Source: a virus. Taken from it: a stretch of DNA of 22,712 bases. This document shows positions 317-10,686 of this stretch, one piece after another (the first letter of the stretch is position 1; each line of letters starts with the position of its first letter). A program made the translations under genes and the position numbers. Location of the stretch: the IMG/VR virus record IMGVR_UViG_3300013101_000110, positions 1 to 22,712 of that record; one strand, 5' to 3'. A model generated the notes under the pieces. That model was given only the letters and a program-made list of their open reading frames with translations, ran no database searches and was not told the DNA's origin.

Positions 317-820
317 CTACTCCCATGGCATTTTATCTACTGATTCTTTTTCTTGTGATGGTGACTTCATAAAGCTGGCTGTTTCATTTTTAGCAGCACC
401 GTTAGAAGGAGTATCTCCGCTATACTGATACTTTTTGTAACCTTTAACATCGTTATTGGTGTATTCACCATTTGTTCTGTTTTCTAGAACAGCAGAAAGA
501 ATTAGGCCATGCATTTCAATAGAGTCTGAGATCCCTTGAGGATTCTTATGGCCTCCTAGATTTAGGATAGCTTTTAATCTTCCCTTGGCGATATCCTCAG
601 CTTGCTTTGAAGCGTTCACGATATTTAGAAAGTCGCTAAATCCACTACCAGAATGTTCACCTTCTATTACTTCAAAATGAATCTTTAGAGCAGATCCAGA
701 TTTGGTATTAACAATCTCAGTGTCAACAATCTTTGCATTGTAATTCCCTGGAGGCAAAAGAGTTTCCCCTCCGCCGCTGTTTTCTTTAACATTTCTTAGA
801 TCCAAGTTTAGTTTTGTCAT
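317..820 (-). CDS. DUF669 family protein, probable phage single-stranded DNA-binding protein
   Basis: This is a 167-residue protein of the DUF669 type: an N-terminal half with the pattern LLPPGNYNAKIVDTEI then SGSALKIHFEVIEGEHSGSGFSDFLNI (about residues 21-66), as in phage proteins that keep the ligand bound in an OB-like fold. The C-terminus is acidic and ends in MPWE, recalling the acidic tail of SSB proteins. Established knowledge places DUF669 genes next to Sak4-like recombinases, and here the start codon overlaps the ATPase stop (TAATG) with a GGAGG site just upstream. Its likely role is coating single strands during phage replication and recombination. The SSB role is inferred from family and context, not shown by a visible catalytic motif. 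Confidence 0.75.
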   Translation of the reverse strand: MTKLNLDLRNVKENSGGGETLLPPGNYNAKIVDTEIVNTKSGSALKIHFEVIEGEHSGSGFSDFLNIVNASKQAEDIAKGRLKAILNLGGHKNPQGISDSIEMHGLILSAVLENRTNGEYTNNDVKGYKKYQYSGDTPSNGAAKNETASFMKSPSQEKESVDKMPWE

Positions 821-1509
821 TACTTCCCTCCCAGGAGTTTACTTAGTATTTTACCTAAGTGTGGTTCTTCATATTTATCTAATTTACCAGATCGGTCTTT
901 TGCTAGTGGGGCCTCAACTATGTCTGTTACTAGCTTTCTATGCGGCTTTCCTTCATCATCACCATAGATTTTGTACTGAAAGACGATATCGAAATAGGAT
1001 TTAATATCGTCCTTAATCTTCTGCCCTGGCAAGTTGAAAGTAGTTATCTTTTCCAGACCGTCAGTTTTTTGACTATCCAGGCACGTAAAGAAAACATTGT
1101 AAGGCGAGAAGTCCCTGAATGTTTTTATATAGTTAGATATATGCATGGCATACTCGCCCCATAGCCTAAAAGCTTGTTTAGGATCGTTAACTGATGGATC
1201 GTTCTTTAGCTCCTTGACAATCATTTCTCCAATTTCAGTTAAAGAGTCGATAAAGACATTCTTGTATCTCTCTTTAGTTTTTGGATTAGCGAGGATCTCT
1301 TCAACTTTATCCAGGTCTTTCATTGTGTTGATTTCAAATACATCAATGTTAGTTCCCTGGAGGCAAAGTAGTCCTGACTCCGCTGATAAGATTAAGGTCT
1401 TATCAGGATCAAGAGTTTTTACCAGGGAAGTTTTTCCTACTCCAGATGGCCCTACAATTAAGGCACTTACCCTGGAACTTGCCACATCTTTTGTGTTAGT
1501 TAGCTTCAT
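820..1509 (-). CDS. RecA-fold ATPase of the AAA_24 / Sak4 type, phage recombination protein
   Basis: This 229-residue ATPase has a Walker A motif GPSGVGKT at residues 20-27, a Walker B-like strand NVFIDSLTE at 84-92, and the WGEYAMHISNYIKTFRD and NVFFTCLDSQKTDG segments typical of the phage nucleotide-binding family PF13479. Some members (Sak4) act as single-strand annealing recombinases together with an SSB. I chose the ATG ending at 1509 rather than one 33 bases upstream because GGAGATAAA directly precedes it and it sits just after the stop of the upstream gene. It is followed without a gap by the DUF669 gene, its usual partner. The length fits the family. Whether it performs annealing or another ATP-driven DNA step cannot be read from the sequence. 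Confidence 0.78.
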   Translation of the reverse strand: MKLTNTKDVASSRVSALIVGPSGVGKTSLVKTLDPDKTLILSAESGLLCLQGTNIDVFEINTMKDLDKVEEILANPKTKERYKNVFIDSLTEIGEMIVKELKNDPSVNDPKQAFRLWGEYAMHISNYIKTFRDFSPYNVFFTCLDSQKTDGLEKITTFNLPGQKIKDDIKSYFDIVFQYKIYGDDEGKPHRKLVTDIVEAPLAKDRSGKLDKYEEPHLGKILSKLLGGK

Positions 1510-1510
1510 T

Positions 1511-1819
1511 TTATCTCCTGTCCAAGTTATAGGCTTTTGCAATTAGCAGTTCTAGCGTTTCCATTATTTTTTCTTGTTGCTCTGCCATTGAATTTATTGC
1601 CATTCTATTTGCCCTTACATCCATTCCATAGGAGCGTACCGCTTCCTTCATGTTTTGTAGGTCTACTCGGTAAACAACTCCCTCTGTCCTTCCTCTTGAT
1701 ATTGCCTCGTTATATCTAATGTCTCCAGAGTTACTTGCCACCATGGTCTTTATGCTTTTTATTAGTGCAGTGTTGTTTTTAATAGATTTTATTAGCTCTA
1801 GAATTTCTTGCTCTATCAT
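1511..1819 (-). CDS. small helical protein of unknown function (102 aa)
   Basis: The product is predicted to be mostly alpha-helical. Residues 1-30 and 60-95 have heptad-like spacing of Ile, Leu, Met and Ala, suggesting coiled-coil pairing. There is no signal peptide, membrane segment or recognisable motif. Its ATG overlaps the stop of the upstream gene (ATGA), and its TAA lies one base before the ATPase start, so it is surely co-transcribed and probably translationally coupled with the recombination genes. A structural or adaptor role in that module is a guess from position only. Confidence 0.65.
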   Translation of the reverse strand: MIEQEILELIKSIKNNTALIKSIKTMVASNSGDIRYNEAISRGRTEGVVYRVDLQNMKEAVRSYGMDVRANRMAINSMAEQQEKIMETLELLIAKAYNLDRR

Positions 1820-2169
1820 AGATTTATCTCCACATCGAAAGAAGGTTTGCCAGGTTTTTCAGTAATCGCTTTTGCCATTACCTTTTTATCTAGCGGTGAT
1901 AGTTTGTCGAACTCAGCTTTAGACCATGAGTATTTTGTCTTTAGTCCAAATCCTCCAAGTTCTTCTGCGATATCTTGATTAACTGTTCGATTTATCTTTC
2001 TGGTAATTTTAACCGTATAATCGCCATCGACTATCTTAGTTAGACCCTCTTCGTTATCTCTTACTATCTGTGAGTGTTTTTTATACATCTCAACCTCTAG
2101 TCCGATCTTGGCTTTTTGCAATTCCTTTACCTGTTCGCATATATTTAAGTAATTGTGATAGTCAAACAT
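1816..2169 (-). CDS. conserved-looking small phage protein, coiled-coil plus beta region (117 aa)
   Basis: The start at 2169 is favoured over an ATG 45 bases upstream because AAGGAG stands 5 bases before it and the upstream extension would lie inside the promoter region. Residues about 10-40 are helical and charged. They are followed by a strand-rich part with the pattern DGDYTVKITRKINRTVN, then a helix. Small proteins with this order occur in phage replication modules, but I do not recall a function. It is the first gene of the leftward operon whose promoter faces the HTH gene. The G-[DS]-[YF]...R...[LV]N pattern has a partial echo in the product of 8040-8312. Confidence 0.65.
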   Translation of the reverse strand: MFDYHNYLNICEQVKELQKAKIGLEVEMYKKHSQIVRDNEEGLTKIVDGDYTVKITRKINRTVNQDIAEELGGFGLKTKYSWSKAEFDKLSPLDKKVMAKAITEKPGKPSFDVEINL

Positions 2170-2186
2170 AGTATCTCCTTTTTTAG

Positions 2187-2215
2187 TTGACCTGAAAGAA
2201 GTTAACTCGTACATT
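2187..2215 (+). promoter_or_regulatory. predicted rightward promoter of the HTH-helicase-primase operon
   Basis: TTGACC at 2187-2192 and TACATT at 2210-2215 are separated by 17 bases, with five and four matches to the sigma70 hexamers. Transcription would start near 2222, giving a short leader before the AAGGAG site and ATG at 2251. The -35 box lies inside the left arm of the inverted repeat described separately. Confidence 0.5.
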
Positions 2216-2227
2216 TGAGGCTGTCAA
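2200..2227 (-). promoter_or_regulatory. predicted leftward promoter of the recombination operon
   Basis: On the minus strand a perfect TTGACA (bases 2227-2222) is followed after 16-17 bases by weak -10 candidates, TTAACT or TAACTT. Transcription would start near 2193, about 25 bases before the ATG at 2169. It occupies the same DNA as the rightward promoter, so polymerase should be able to use only one at a time. The -10 assignment is the weak point. Confidence 0.42.
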
Positions 2228-2250
2228 CTAAAAACAAAGGAGTTAACGTG

Positions 2251-2475
2251 ATGACTAAACTGATTAAGTATCTTAAACGAGAAGGCCTGAGTAGGTTCTC
2301 ATTTGCGGTGAAGGTGGGAGTTACCCCATCAGCTATACATAATATAGTAACTGGCAAAAGCACCCCTTCATTAATGCTAGCGTTTAGAATCGAGGAAGAA
2401 ACAGATGGCGAAATCTCAGCAGAGTACTTTTACAAAGCAGCACTTAAGAAAATACCAAAAGGAAGGAATAAATGA
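2251..2475 (+). CDS. small XRE-type helix-turn-helix regulator (74 aa)
   Basis: Residues about 14-40 (SRFSFAVKVGVTPSAIHNIV then GKSTPSL) match the Cro/CI-like HTH pattern: helix 2, a Gly-containing turn, a recognition helix, and the downstream GKxxPS motif. The start at 2251 has AAGGAG 8 bases upstream; an earlier in-frame ATG at 2215 would lie at the promoter. The protein is only a DNA-binding domain with a short basic tail, like Cro rather than a full CI repressor with a cleavage domain. It is the first gene of the rightward operon and lies beside repeated AGTTRAC sites, so it probably autoregulates and controls the divergent pair. Its last 71 bases overlap the helicase gene in another frame. 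Confidence 0.8.
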   Translation: MTKLIKYLKREGLSRFSFAVKVGVTPSAIHNIVTGKSTPSLMLAFRIEEETDGEISAEYFYKAALKKIPKGRNK

Positions 2476-3835
2476 AATCCATCAGTCTTTCAGAGAGGGA
2501 CTTAAGCGAGTTATCTTCCATCTTTCAACAGGGGGAGGAAAGAGTATTACTTTTAGTTCTATCGTTTGGGATCATTATATTAATAATCTTCCTGTCATCG
2601 TGGTAGTCAAACGAAGACAGCTAATAGACCAGGCATCTAAAAACCTTGATAATTTCAGGATTCCCCATGGAGTACTAATGGCGAACCACTGGAGGAAAAA
2701 ACCAAATGAGAAAATACAAATCGCAAGTATCGACACTATTCATTCCCGTAGTAATTATCATTATAGCGACGATCCCCGTTGCTTGGTTATTGTGGACGAA
2801 TGTCACGATGTGCGTGGATCGGGGGCTAAGTACCCAAAGCTTTTTGAGGTGTACGACAAGTCCTATATTGTGGGATTTACAGCAACACCGTATGCAGACA
2901 ATTCCTTCTTTCAAAAGATAGTCTGTCCGATAGAAGGGTATGAATTGAGAGATCAGGGTTTTCTTGTACCAGAGAGAACCTATATCCCTTCAAGCATCGA
3001 CGTTTCCCAGGTAAAAAGTTCCGGTGGCGATTATAACAAAAAGCAATTGTTCGAGGCATCCAGTGGGAGTCAAATAATTGGCGATATTGTTAAGTCATGG
3101 AAAACTCATGCAGAAGGAAGAGCAACACTTCTTTTCGCAGTAAACGTGGAACACTCAAAAATGATTAGGGATAAATTCCTTGCCGAGGGAATATCAGCAG
3201 TACATTTAGACGCTAACGATTCCCTCGATGCAAGAAAAAAAGCTTTAAACAAACTTTCACAAGGATTGATAAAGATAATCACAAATTGCGATGTAATGTC
3301 AACGGGAGTCGACATACCCATGGTGTCTTGCATCCAGTTAGCAAGACCAACTAGATCTGTTATCTGGCATATCCAATCGATAGGCAGGGGCCTTAGGCCG
3401 TTTCCAGGTAAGAAAGATTGTATAATAATAGATAACGCTGGAAATACATTAAGACATGGTTCAATCTATATGCCCAGAATTGCAACTATAGAGAAAAGGA
3501 AGAAAAGACTAGATCCCCTGCCAATGATGAGAACCTGTGCTAAATGCTATTTCATCTTCACGACTCTAGGGCCTTGCCCTCAGTGCGGATTCGCTGACAA
3601 AAAAGTTAGAAATATAGACTATGTAGAAGGTGATTTAATCCATCACCAAGTAAGCGAGGAAGAAATCAGAAAAACACACTTCTTAAATAGATATAAAACT
3701 CTTAGAAAAGCGGCCAGGTTCGGTAAAAAGAAATGGATTCCAAGCTACGAATACCAACAACTTAAAAAGGAATTTGGCGTTGATATCTGCAAAAAGTTTT
3801 CAAATCTAGTCTCATTCCCAGGGCATTTACTATGA
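2405..3835 (+). CDS. superfamily 2 DEAD/DEAH-type helicase with C-terminal zinc ribbon
   Basis: The 476-residue product carries the SF2 set in order: a Q-like element LRKYQKEG (14-21), Walker A STGGGKS (41-47), motif II DECH (131-134), motif III GFTATP (157-162), and motif VI QSIGRGLR (324-331). A Cys4 zinc site follows at C378, C381, C391 and C394. These define an ATP-driven DNA or RNA translocase or helicase; phage members of this type sit in replication modules beside VRR-NUC and prim-pol genes, as here. The only Met before the Q element is at 2405, so the gene must start inside the HTH gene and overlap it by 71 bases; a GAGGAAG stretch precedes it. Its stop overlaps the next start (ATGA). 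Confidence 0.88.
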   Translation: MAKSQQSTFTKQHLRKYQKEGINEIHQSFREGLKRVIFHLSTGGGKSITFSSIVWDHYINNLPVIVVVKRRQLIDQASKNLDNFRIPHGVLMANHWRKKPNEKIQIASIDTIHSRSNYHYSDDPRCLVIVDECHDVRGSGAKYPKLFEVYDKSYIVGFTATPYADNSFFQKIVCPIEGYELRDQGFLVPERTYIPSSIDVSQVKSSGGDYNKKQLFEASSGSQIIGDIVKSWKTHAEGRATLLFAVNVEHSKMIRDKFLAEGISAVHLDANDSLDARKKALNKLSQGLIKIITNCDVMSTGVDIPMVSCIQLARPTRSVIWHIQSIGRGLRPFPGKKDCIIIDNAGNTLRHGSIYMPRIATIEKRKKRLDPLPMMRTCAKCYFIFTTLGPCPQCGFADKKVRNIDYVEGDLIHHQVSEEEIRKTHFLNRYKTLRKAARFGKKKWIPSYEYQQLKKEFGVDICKKFSNLVSFPGHLL

Positions 3836-4176
3836 GCAAGTACCGACAACATCAAATTTTAGTGAGGGAATTATGTATATCAATCCAAAAGGAATACCCA
3901 CTGGCTCTTATCTTTCAACCATCGGTGGGATTGTTTTTTACCAAGAGCGGGAGACCAATCAAGATTGGAAAAAACGGGCAGAGCGATATTTATCTGCTTC
4001 ATCCCCATTCAGCTATGAAACTGCTTTTTTACGTTGCAATAGAGGTAAAAACGGGCAATTCACAATTATCCCCCGTACAGAAAAATTTCAAAAGGGAAGT
4101 AGAGTCAAGAGGCGGTACTTATATCTTAGCTAGATCAGTAGAGCAAACTTTAGAGGAGTTAAAAAATGTTATCTAA
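3832..4176 (+). CDS. VRR-NUC domain nuclease (PD-(D/E)xK fold)
   Basis: The 114-residue protein has the stand-alone phage VRR-NUC layout. SDIYLL (D52) supplies the first metal ligand, VAIEVKTG (E71, K73) gives the ExK part of the catalytic site, and LSPVQKNF has the conserved Gln (Q83), followed by GGTYILARSVEQ. Family members cut branched or flapped DNA; FAN1 is the well-studied eukaryotic relative. The start overlaps the helicase stop by 4 bases and the end overlaps the primase start by 11 bases, so the three are coupled. Processing replication or recombination intermediates alongside the helicase is the likely job; the exact substrate is unknown. Confidence 0.88.
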   Translation: MSKYRQHQILVRELCISIQKEYPLALIFQPSVGLFFTKSGRPIKIGKNGQSDIYLLHPHSAMKLLFYVAIEVKTGNSQLSPVQKNFKREVESRGGTYILARSVEQTLEELKNVI

Positions 4177-6538
4177 AACAAAATTATTTGAACTAATGGA
4201 AGAATATTCCGAAAACGATATGTCAGTTATTCCTGTATTTAGAACCATTACCAATGGTGGATTCAGTGGGAAAGTTACCAGGATAAAAGGTTGGCAAGAA
4301 TATTCCAACCGCTTACCAACTGAAGCAGAAAGAGATGCGTGGAAAACCATGCAAAATATCTCAGGGATAGCACTGGTATTAGGCCCTAAAAGTAATATTT
4401 GTGCCATGGATATCGACACCGATGATCCTAGAATACTAGCTAAAATGCAACAATCACCTTGTGTGAAAAGAGGTAAAAAAGGCGAGACCAGATTCTTTAG
4501 AAGAAAAGATCTAGACGATCAATCATATCCAGAACCGCCAAGGCAGATTGTAACAGTAAAAAGAGATGGGAAAGCTACGGTAGAGTTTTTCTTCGCCAAT
4601 AAATATGTAGTCATTCCACCAAGCCTTCACTCACAAAATGGCAACGCTGATCCATTGTTTTTTAAATGGACTTCAATGGAACAGTTAATAGATATCGACC
4701 TATACGAATTACCAGTATTTGATCCAGGTCAAATAGCACTAGCAGAATCCTTATGCCAGGAAACTAATTTTGACCAAAATAAGCCGCTAACTATTGTTAA
4801 GAATGGAGACTATGAAGGCGATAGATACAACGATATGAAAACCTTGGCATCTAAGTTGATAGCATTTAAGACACCGCTTGAAGAGGCCATTCAATCACTG
4901 TTAGATCACGATGAATCAAGAAACAAAATGAACCCATACTTTGCAGATAAATCAAAAGGACACAGAACTGATTCAATGAGAATAAATGCTATGAAATACT
5001 ACTGCGATATATTAGCAGTAACTCAGATAAACAAACCTCATGATAAAATAGAATTACCAAAGCCTACGGTAGTATCAGTATTGATAGACGGGCTGGAGTG
5101 GGAAGAACCTTTGCCGATAAGCTTTGAACAAATAATACCAGATATGAGTATAGACTTAGTTCCAGAAATAATGAGACCTTGGATATTATGGCAAAAAGAA
5201 AATCTAGGAGTCGATCTAGCACCAGTATATTATAAGGCAGAAACGGCACTATCAGGGTTGATCGGAAACAAGGTAGAAATACAACCAAAAGAAAATGACT
5301 TCAAATGGAAAGAGGCTGCAAACTTATGGACTATGTTCATAGCTCCCCCAGGTAGAAAAAAATCGCCTATCACTAACTCTGTATTAAGTTTTGTTCAAGA
5401 GATCGAAAAAGAAATAGTTAAGAAATCTCATAAACAGGAAATGGAGAATAACGAAAAAAGATGCGAACTTGCCGCCATCATTAAACATAAAGAGAAATAT
5501 CTACATAGGGCCTTAATTGAAGGATGTGAACAAGAGGCAGAACAGGCAAGAAAAGAACTAGCTGAACTCAAAATAGAGGAGTCTGCAATTTTCTCTTGCA
5601 GACCTCAGATAATAGTTAATTCCCTTACCATGCAGAAACTAGGTAATATCCTGGTAGAAAATCCATCAGGTGTTCTGATGAACGTAGACGAATTAGGCCA
5701 GCTATGGAAAAACATGGAAAAAGAAACATCAGGATTACTGCGAGGTTTTTTATTGCAAGCTTGGGGAGGGCTTTCAAGCTATAGACATCAAACAGTAGGA
5801 GGATCAGATTTTAATATAGAACATCTCTGCATTTCACTAATGGCAAATGTTCAGCCTTCTCTGTTTAGCCACATGATATCTGAACAAATAAGACAAAATT
5901 CAGATGATGGATTCCTTCAGAGATCCTCTATTTGTTTTGATAGTGGAAAGATTAGAGATTTTAAAGATGCTATTATAAATCCGAAAGATTTAGAACGTGC
6001 TAAAAATCTTTACTGGAGAGCATACAACATTAATCCTGCAATAATCAAATTTTCAAAACCTGCTCAGGCCTTTTTAGTCGAATACAATAGAAAGCTAGAC
6101 AAGATGATTATTAAAGAGGAAATGGGAATAGTTGCTGGATTCTTATCTAAATTTAGAGGCCTATTAGTTAAGAAAGCGTTTTTAATAGATTTTATACACT
6201 CCGATGAAGTAGTTCATGAAGTATCACTAAGAGGCGTTCAAATGGCAGAAAAACAATTAGATCTTAATTATAAAAATATCAAAATTGCTATGTTATCCCC
6301 GGCCTTCGACCTTGCTAAGTCCTTTATAGCAGAAATAAAAGATTGCACCATAGAATCAGGAATCAATATTAGCCAACTTTCTCGAAATTATAAACGATAT
6401 TTTGCCAACCGCTTTATAAGCGACACTATGTTTAAACTATTGGAAAGAAATAATTACATAAAAATTCATAGAGTAGGGAATGCCAAAAAGTTGCTAGTCA
6501 ATCCTTGTTTATATCAGGATATGCCAAAGCAAAATTAA
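4166..6538 (+). CDS. bifunctional primase: prim-pol domain fused to DUF3987 helicase-like domain
   Basis: The 790-residue protein begins with a prim-pol type domain: KGWQEY (41-46), the metal-binding DID within ICAMDIDTDD (D82, D84), and VIPPSLH (149-155), where His is a usual catalytic residue. The C-terminal two thirds match DUF3987: a P-loop-like APPGRKKS near residues 393-400 and MNVDELGQLW near 503-513 as the Walker B counterpart. A charged coiled-coil insertion lies at about 415-475. The protein should make primers and may unwind DNA at the phage origin. GAGGAG stands 8 bases before the ATG. The gene ends the rightward early operon and its stop overlaps the end of a minus-strand gene by 4 bases, with no terminator visible between them. 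Confidence 0.82.
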   Translation: MLSKTKLFELMEEYSENDMSVIPVFRTITNGGFSGKVTRIKGWQEYSNRLPTEAERDAWKTMQNISGIALVLGPKSNICAMDIDTDDPRILAKMQQSPCVKRGKKGETRFFRRKDLDDQSYPEPPRQIVTVKRDGKATVEFFFANKYVVIPPSLHSQNGNADPLFFKWTSMEQLIDIDLYELPVFDPGQIALAESLCQETNFDQNKPLTIVKNGDYEGDRYNDMKTLASKLIAFKTPLEEAIQSLLDHDESRNKMNPYFADKSKGHRTDSMRINAMKYYCDILAVTQINKPHDKIELPKPTVVSVLIDGLEWEEPLPISFEQIIPDMSIDLVPEIMRPWILWQKENLGVDLAPVYYKAETALSGLIGNKVEIQPKENDFKWKEAANLWTMFIAPPGRKKSPITNSVLSFVQEIEKEIVKKSHKQEMENNEKRCELAAIIKHKEKYLHRALIEGCEQEAEQARKELAELKIEESAIFSCRPQIIVNSLTMQKLGNILVENPSGVLMNVDELGQLWKNMEKETSGLLRGFLLQAWGGLSSYRHQTVGGSDFNIEHLCISLMANVQPSLFSHMISEQIRQNSDDGFLQRSSICFDSGKIRDFKDAIINPKDLERAKNLYWRAYNINPAIIKFSKPAQAFLVEYNRKLDKMIIKEEMGIVAGFLSKFRGLLVKKAFLIDFIHSDEVVHEVSLRGVQMAEKQLDLNYKNIKIAMLSPAFDLAKSFIAEIKDCTIESGINISQLSRNYKRYFANRFISDTMFKLLERNNYIKIHRVGNAKKLLVNPCLYQDMPKQN

Positions 6539-8312: not shown

Positions 8313-8403
8313 TTAATTCCCTTACTTTGTATTTTCAAAAAGCTGCCAACTACTTTGTGCCGCCCTGAAAAGAGATGTTTTTTAAAACCAATTGTAATAT
8401 TTT

Positions 8404-8420
8404 CATATATAAAATTTACA
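8404..8420 (+). repeat. 17-bp direct repeat, copy 1
   Basis: CATATATAAAATTTACA occurs here and again at 10531-10547, 2.1 kb away in the other long gap. In both places TTTACA/TGTAAA palindromes follow within about 20 bases, so the repeat marks a shared regulatory or replication element rather than chance AT-richness. Confidence 0.6.
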
Positions 8421-8425
8421 TACCT

Positions 8426-8447
8426 GATTTTACATAATTGTAAAATC
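8426..8447. promoter_or_regulatory. 22-bp palindrome GATTTTACA-TAAT-TGTAAAATC, possible operator
   Basis: Nine-base arms pair perfectly around TAAT. The core TTTACA...TGTAAA recurs at 10542-10555. The symmetry and short spacer suit a dimeric regulator. It lies about 115 bases upstream of the first gene of the leftward operon (8040-8312). No known binding protein can be named. Confidence 0.45.
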
Positions 8448-8711
8448 TACACGGTGCAGTTTGGCCCTAAGGCATAAAACTTGAATGTGCAAGATTCATG
8501 CCAAAAATTATTTTTTCAGAATTCCATCTTTTTCTCCAGAATTGTTTTTTTATATCTCAAAAAAAAACCTGAAAAGCTTTTCCCTGGATGGATCTGGATT
8601 AAATTTCTAAGGGCCTAAATAGAGCGTTATGAAGTATTTTGCACGTTAACCATCCTTGTATATAGGTATTTTTAATGAGGCCTTAAAAACCGTCTTAAGA
8701 GCCTTAAATAG

Positions 8712-8740
8712 ATTAAATAGAGTCGACTCTGTATCGTCAA
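8712..8740 (-). promoter_or_regulatory. predicted leftward promoter with palindrome between -35 and -10
   Basis: On the minus strand TTGACG (8740-8735) and TTTAAT (8717-8712) are 17 bases apart, each with five of six consensus matches. The perfect 12-bp palindrome AGAGTCGACTCT (8719-8730) lies in the spacer, where a bound repressor or MerR-like activator would act. The -35 is preceded by TTTAG, as in the promoters near 2200. Transcription would start near 8705, giving a leader of about 390 bases to the gene at 8312. Confidence 0.55.
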
Positions 8741-8902
8741 CTAAATAAATGCCTTTCCTAGAAAAAAACTCCAGAAGTTTTTCTTTAGATATCCAAAAAG
8801 GCTTGAAATAGACAAGAAAGTTAAATTTAGGCTTTTCAGGATTAGGTCTAAGGCCGTTTTTTTAATTAAAAGATATCAAGGTAAGGGGATTTTTGGACAA
8901 AA

Positions 8903-8929
8903 AAATAGGCCCTTTTCTAGGGCCTATTT
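8903..8929 (-). terminator. strong Rho-independent terminator of the 8998-10033 operon
   Basis: AAATAGGCCC (8903-8912) and GGGCCTATTT (8920-8929) form a perfect 10-bp stem with a 7-base loop. On the minus strand it is followed by seven or more T residues (8905-8899) and comes about 70 bases after the stop of the lipoprotein gene. This is a textbook terminator for leftward transcription. Confidence 0.85.
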
Positions 8930-8997
8930 CAGGTCACGCATTTTGATTTTCTATTATAATGATGATCACCACCATTATAATCATAATTAAAAACATT

Positions 8998-10033: not shown

Positions 10034-10064
10034 TTTCTTTTCTCCTAAAAGTTATTTTCTAGGA

Positions 10065-10093
10065 TATATCTACTTATACACTAAAAGAGTCAA
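10065..10093 (-). promoter_or_regulatory. predicted leftward promoter of the lipoprotein operon
   Basis: On the minus strand TTGACT (10093-10088) is followed after 17 bases by GATATA (10070-10065), or after 19 by TATATC (10068-10063). It is preceded by AAAAG, so the -35 again reads AGTTGAC as in the control region near 2200 and the promoter near 8740. Transcription would start near 10058, leaving about 25 bases before the ATG at 10033. Confidence 0.4.
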
Positions 10094-10221
10094 CTTTTAT
10101 ATGTAGCGTGAAAATACTTCCAAAAGTTTTGCGCAGAATGTTTTTGGTCTTTTATAAATACCTGTTATTAAATGTGAATTGATCTAAGTCGTTGATTTCC
10201 CGAAATACCTTTCATGATGTT

Positions 10222-10301
10222 CTTCTATACATATATATAAATTTTAATTTTCTGCATTACTAGTAATATATAGAGTCATTTTTTTAATGTATGTATAGAA
10301 G
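10222..10301. repeat. 12-bp perfect inverted repeat with 56-base centre
   Basis: CTTCTATACATA (10222-10233) and TATGTATAGAAG (10290-10301) are exact reverse complements. The centre is almost wholly A and T and includes ATATATATAA and AGTAATATATAG. This could extrude as a cruciform, bind a protein at both arms, or be an easily melted origin segment. Confidence 0.55.
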
Positions 10302-10329
10302 TGCGGAATGCAAAGCCTTACGGGATTCT

Positions 10330-10404
10330 AGGCACTTAAGTCAGAACCCTAAAGTTAACAGGCACTTAGCTATATACCAAATAGCAGCATCGAGCAGAAC
10401 CCTA
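10330..10404 (+). repeat. two-part direct repeats AGGCACTTA ... CAGAACCCTA
   Basis: AGGCACTTA occurs at 10330-10338 and 10360-10368; CAGAACCCTA occurs at 10342-10351 and 10395-10404. Each AGGCACTTA is followed by one CAGAACCCTA but at different distances (3 and 26 bases apart), so this is a paired-element arrangement rather than one simple tandem duplication. Confidence 0.5.
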
Positions 10405-10477
10405 CAACGTACCACGTTGACATGAAGAGTCTATGATTTTGAAATGATTACATGGTGCAAAAAGGCACTGGTATCGT

Positions 10478-10520
10478 ATGCAAGTATCGTGCCAGTTGTG
10501 CATGCAAGGATCATGCCAGT
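10478..10520 (+). repeat. tandem imperfect repeat, 19-base units, 24-base period
   Basis: ATGCAAGTATCGTGCCAGT (10478-10496) and ATGCAAGGATCATGCCAGT (10502-10520) differ at two positions. A partial inverted copy, GGCACTGGTATCG, lies just upstream at 10464-10476. Repeats of about 20 bases at near two-helical-turn spacing resemble iterons that bind a replication or regulatory protein. Confidence 0.55.
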
Positions 10521-10530
10521 GTAAGATTTA

Positions 10531-10555
10531 CATATATAAAATTTACACGTGTAAA
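10531..10555. repeat. 17-bp direct repeat copy 2 with TTTACACGTGTAAA palindrome
   Basis: Bases 10531-10547 repeat 8404-8420 exactly. They run into the perfect 14-bp palindrome TTTACACGTGTAAA (10542-10555). A related TGTAA-GAT-TTACA element lies at 10520-10532. The same hexamers form the palindrome at 8426-8447, so the two long gaps probably share a binding protein. Confidence 0.55.
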
Positions 10556-10645
10556 AAATACAATTGGGGGTAGGGGGGGGTACAAGAAAAAAGAGAAGGA
10601 CAAAAAGAAATAGACCCCTCTCCCAAATAATTCCAAAATATCGAA

Positions 10646-10675
10646 AAGACAATTTAACTCAAGTATTAGTATGCT
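10646..10675 (+). promoter_or_regulatory. possible rightward promoter of the late region
   Basis: AAGACA (10646-10651) and TATGCT (10670-10675) are 18 bases apart, each with about four consensus matches. They lie just before the first rightward late gene at 10687. The match is weak, and a phage-specific or activator-dependent promoter elsewhere in 10300-10686 is also possible. Confidence 0.25.
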
Positions 10676-10686
10676 AGGATATTGAT

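Follow-up and report, generated by a model that had tools for sequence, protein, structure and literature searches.

The region at 2180-2247 of this virus contig is probably a strong/strong bidirectional promoter, in which two early operons use a shared polymerase slot and a Cro-like protein regulates its own synthesis, in a tailed phage of apparently virulent type. The window, i.e., the whole stretch of 22,712 nt that was analysed, is an entire contig (G000:C39) without any Rfam or tRNA match, and it looks incomplete, since the relatives sharing its capsid protein are about 40-42 kb long in IMG/VR. When two proteins encoded in the half of G369, a relative, that the window lacks were sought in the host assembly, neither gave a match, so the remainder of the phage was not located. 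The genes on either side of the junction are as follows.

317..820, - strand: DUF669 / SSB-like protein
820..1542, - strand: Sak4-like AAA_24 ATPase (PF13479, E 2.1e-22; phrog_124), with a likely ATG start at 1509
1511..1819, - strand: 102-aa protein with no family match above noise
1816..2169, - strand: DUF7173 / phrog_2480 protein, the first leftward gene, with the SD GGAG at 2178-2175
2251..2475, + strand: Cro-like HTH_3 protein of 74 aa (PF01381, E 8.9e-7), the first rightward gene
2405..3835, + strand: DNA helicase (ResIII/Helicase_C, phrog_16)
3832..4176, + strand: VRR-NUC nuclease
4166..6538, + strand: Prim-Pol / DUF3987 primase-helicase

This arrangement agrees with the sequence-only reading, which had placed a Cro-sized HTH protein first on one side (here HTH_3) and recombination genes on the other (DUF7173, Sak4-like and DUF669). 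The structural model of the HTH protein has five helices and a mean pLDDT of 89, and Foldseek related it to XRE folds of the HigA, SinR and C-protein type with a best E of only ~0.02, as expected for such a small domain. The DUF7173 gene (phrog_2480) heads the recombination operon in the window and in the relatives G375 and G369, suggesting that its product may act with the Sak4-like and SSB-like proteins.

Promoters were predicted by a position-weighted sigma-70 scan of both strands of the 22.7 kb window, using hexamer frequencies typical of E. coli promoters and a 17 bp spacer as the optimum. With this matrix, which may not fit the host, the rightward promoter of the junction ranked second and the leftward promoter eleventh in the window.

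2187..2215, + strand: rightward promoter, TTGACC (2187), 17 bp, TACATT (2210); predicted start ~2222
2199..2227, - strand: leftward promoter, TTGACA (2227), 17 bp, TAACTT (2204); predicted start ~2192

Two opposing promoters on common DNA (~45 bases), as the sequence-only reading had proposed with starts near 2222 and 2193, were thus recovered by the prediction, both with 17-bp spacers. The boxes are fully interleaved in the order rightward -35, leftward -10, rightward -10 and leftward -35, while the two -10 boxes (2199-2204 and 2210-2215) are separate with 5 bp between them, and the predicted starts are 30 bp apart. The gap between the start codons is 81 bp, and two promoters so good within it had a probability of P = 0.002 in shuffles of the gap only. 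The leftward -10, TAACTT, is weak; because it matches only 3/6 positions, a simple 4-of-6 scan lists the rightward promoter alone. The promoter that ranks third in the window (AGTTGACG-17-TTTAAT, 8740-8712 on the - strand) lies in the non-coding stretch 8313-8997. This stretch and another long AT-rich non-coding stretch, 10034-10686, have CATATATAAAATTTACA in common (8404-8420 and 10531-10547), possibly a late promoter or origin element.

The junction also carries a pair of inverted arms and four physical AGTTRAC sites (2185-2191, 2200-2206, 2223-2229 on the - strand, and 2241-2247), both located where the sequence-only reading had put them.

2180..2191, no strand: left 12-bp arm, TTTTTAGTTGAC, containing the rightward promoter -35
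2200..2207, no strand: AGTTAACT palindrome, AGTTRAC at 2200-2206 and, on the other strand, at 2201-2207; overlaps the leftward -10
2223..2234, no strand: right 12-bp arm, GTCAACTAAAAA, comprising most of the leftward -35 as well as the rightward mRNA's 5' leader
2236..2247, + strand: SD AAAGGAG and spacer TTAAC of the HTH gene, the spacer lying within the AGTTAAC copy at 2241-2247

The arms are 100% complementary and separated by 31 nt. Each of them has a dual content, in that TTGAC serves one promoter as its -35, and the opposite strand is the predicted start of the other transcript; the left arm, for example, reads GTCAACTAAAAA in the leftward direction, which is the 5' leader of the leftward transcript. 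The predicted mRNA leaders are TGTCAACTAAAAACAAAGGAG (rightward) and GGTCAACTAAAAAAGGAG (leftward). The symmetry therefore belongs to the promoters and leaders, and no operator is needed to explain it. By themselves the arms are modest, since 0.13 perfect 12-bp inverted repeats with a gap of up to 60 nt were expected per shuffled window and two were seen; the second, with a 56-nt loop, is at 10222-10301 in a non-coding stretch. The two AGTTGAC copies are the two -35 boxes. The leftward -10 (AAGTTA on the + strand) overlaps one AGTTAAC copy; the second copy forms the SD spacer of the HTH gene, whose SD is a good one. The AGTTAACT palindrome is a possible candidate operator.

Searches of viral contigs with the single helicase or primase protein gave no match, and two scans of genome contigs gave no relatives. 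A search with the capsid protein was successful, and the HTH gene was then sought in the records of the capsid relatives, where it is present in G375, G369, G380 and G378. The junction is kept in G375 and G369, with DUF7173, Sak4-like and DUF669 genes leftward and the HTH gene followed by the helicase rightward; in G380, G378 and G373, the HTH gene follows an SSB-like gene within an operon whose genes all run the same way. A primase motif scan added L283, L288, L289, L303, L304 and L306, which have the Sak4-like gene leftward and a small HTH gene and a more distal primase rightward, and the junctions of L293, L297 and L302 are identical to that of L288. The small HTH proteins of these added contigs belong to the same family and have 64-70 aa (the open frame in L289 has 57 aa). 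The divergence of a Sak4/SSB-type operon from a small Cro-like HTH gene with helicase and/or primase recurs in other virus contigs. An alignment of ten HTH proteins showed a common pattern with differing recognition helices, so a single shared operator is not expected. In G375 the HTH gene and the helicase are separated by an HNH-like ORF (L126:6337-6786), and a similar ORF is found in L258 (2695-3147). A symmetric opposing -35 pair, AGTTGACAGGG...CCCTAGTCAACT with N33, was also observed in a divergent gap of L204 (2153-2199), a contig with a phrog_16-like helicase from a phage that otherwise looks unrelated.

We scored the best rightward and the best leftward promoter in the gap of each relative with the same E. 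coli matrix, with the same reservation as to the host. G375 has TTGACA-17-AATAAT against TTGACA-17-TAGTCT with a start distance of 33 (P 0.001). In L288, L289, L303 and L306, all spacers are 17, the start distance is 26 and the outer span of the -35 boxes is 45 (P 0.006, 0.001, 0.004 and 0.010, respectively). In G369 the -35 boxes overlap rather than cross, with a start distance of 64 (P 0.043), and neither L283 (P 0.076) nor L304 (P 0.25) has a convincing pair. Fisher combination over eight regions, omitting L289 as close to L288, gave P 6.7e-9, a figure that overstates the count of independent events because the regions are partly homologous. The best-kept element across the relatives is GTTGACA at the leftward -35.

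The overlap might come merely from the shortness of the phage gap, with no meaningful competition or regulatory logic. The start codons are close together, and a small control set of other short divergent gaps in the fetched loci, chosen in part by motif, likewise included several with overlapping best sites. Short gaps force closeness, and overlap was seen in these control gaps too, so overlap alone is weak evidence. E. coli bidirectional promoters at basal strength, moreover, show little competition (PMC12825309). However, in contrast to those weak pairs, the window has 17-bp spacers and near-consensus -35s on both sides, and the 26-bp start distance is fixed in L288, L289, L303 and L306 even though their sequences have diverged; being homologous, these four do not count as independent events. 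A pair of near-consensus promoters whose spacing is kept is stronger evidence than overlap alone, and we consider an ordinary compact gap the less probable explanation, though one that keeps a real chance. Somewhat less likely still is the proposal that the HTH protein uses AGTTRAC as its operator and would set the direction by filling the sites over one promoter first, making a compact two-state switch. Four sites occur within 63 bp, two of them independent of the -35 constraint; the 12-mers AAAGAAGTTAAC and AAAGGAGTTAAC match at 11/12 positions, and G375, too, contains one GTTGAC, two copies of GTCAAC and a GTTAAC, the last within the other gene's SD spacer. However, AGTTGAC is accounted for as the -35, GGAGTTAA is present at the primase start too, and the centre spacings of ~15, 22 and 19 bp form no regular dimer pattern. 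The cluster is also not significant post hoc, as regions with at least four copies of some once-degenerate 7-mer within 70 bp number ~0.65 per shuffled window and four in the real window. Upstream of the orthologues, AGTTRAC was not conserved beyond the -35 except in G375; in most relatives, only the leftward -35 GTTGACA is kept. A common HTH operator sought by eye in L288, L289, L303 and L306 gave nothing consistent. The control by clustered AGTTRAC operators that was proposed from the sequence is thus not supported. AGTTRAC was also rejected as a regulon motif, with seven sites outside the cluster against 5.5 expected in the whole window, i.e., about chance; the one at 8736 (- strand) forms the -35 of the promoter that ranks third, and another at 10089 (- strand) is upstream of a leftward gene. 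Among the matches listed for AGTTGAC-N22-40-GTCAACT in viral contigs, 79 of 121 lie within long ORFs and seven in clean divergent gaps, and no spacing was favoured among these matches (at least 120).

It is very improbable that the junction is the immunity region of a temperate phage, representing the Cro half of a CI/Cro switch with the CI gene missing or outside the contig. A divergent promoter with a Cro-like HTH gene would suit such a region, and the contig, at 22.7 kb against ~40 kb in relatives, is incomplete. However, the leftward operon consists of recombination genes (DUF7173, the 102-aa protein, Sak4-like and DUF669) with no CI-type repressor, the absence of which in the window had been pointed out from the sequence. 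An integrase was found in none of the eight related contigs, and no contig among them had more than one clear small HTH_3 protein; the assembly has three integrase matches, all of them outside the window contig, which is itself incomplete. Together, the lack of an integrase in the eight contigs, the single HTH_3 protein at most and the recombination genes opposite make a lysogeny switch unlikely. Of the genetic switch proposed earlier, the opposing promoters stand, but a choice between lysis and lysogeny is unlikely.

We return to the strong/strong bidirectional promoter with Cro-like autoregulation. The leftward transcript would carry the DUF7173, Sak4-like recombinase and SSB-like genes, and the rightward transcript the Cro-like HTH, helicase, nuclease and primase genes, while the AGTTGAC arms would chiefly be -35 boxes and the beginnings of mRNA leaders. 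From the geometry, a polymerase bound in one direction would cover the opposite promoter, so that the two early operons would share a single slot; the mutual exclusion so predicted is sound on steric grounds. We infer that both promoters are used and that the HTH protein binds and represses at the junction. Given its family and position, it most likely binds in or beside the slot and, on accumulating, would lower its own operon and probably both. Since the -35s on both sides are near consensus, polymerase competition is a reasonable prediction, and the polymerase's choice of direction may be part of early-gene timing in these phages. Distinctly doubtful is the further idea that, in a virulent-type phage family, one conserved promoter of this kind with a mini-Cro protein works as a CI-less switch by polymerase competition, choosing between recombination-annealing and replication by infection stage or by cell.

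Several known systems resemble the junction in part. As in the CI/Cro regions of lambda, phi13 (PMC8516035) and PY54 (PMC4488713), a small Cro-like HTH gene is first at a divergent promoter; in contrast to them, the divergent side has recombination genes instead of CI, and no integrase was seen in the relatives. The nearest named phage by helicase (36%), Bdellovibrio phage phi1422 (JQ177062), has a small HTH-like gene, gp11, starting beside the divergent gene gp12, although its gene order is different. Among systems with the regulator gene to one side, the nearest analogue found was the Pr/Pc pair of pLS20 with RcoLS20 (PMC4207663), in which divergent promoters with overlapping -35/-10 positions likewise serve the regulator gene from one side and a large operon from the other. 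However, Pr is a weak promoter that depends on Rco, whereas the sequences of both promoters here suggest strength; tetrameric Rco also loops the DNA between two operators, and no second operator was found here.

The E. coli bidirectional promoters of Warman, Grainger and colleagues (PMC12825309) also consist of pseudo-symmetric DNA with divergent transcripts, on which opposing polymerases cannot co-bind and one strong -35 represses the other direction, a likeness that for the window is predicted from geometry. Divergent starts from overlapping promoter DNA are predicted here too; however, the E. coli pairs have a shared -10, TSSs mostly 10-23 bp apart and low basal activity, whereas the window lacks the shared -10 and the ~10-23 bp distance, and the phage junctions have predicted starts 26-33 bp apart, separate -10s, both -35s near consensus and a Cro-like gene in one operon. 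In five E. coli bidirectional promoters competition appeared only after transcription one way had been increased, for instance through an improved -35, being negligible at the weak basal level and substantial after the improvement (PMC12825309). A natural strong/strong pair with a Cro-like gene would belong to the known class of bidirectional promoters, differing in the near-consensus -35s on both sides. In the bacterial bidirectional promoters studied to date, the basal level is so weak that polymerases seldom compete (PMC12825309); a near-consensus pair kept between replication and recombination operons in several phages would be a good test case for regulatory polymerase competition and would suggest a reason for a Cro-like protein in phages without visible lysogeny genes.
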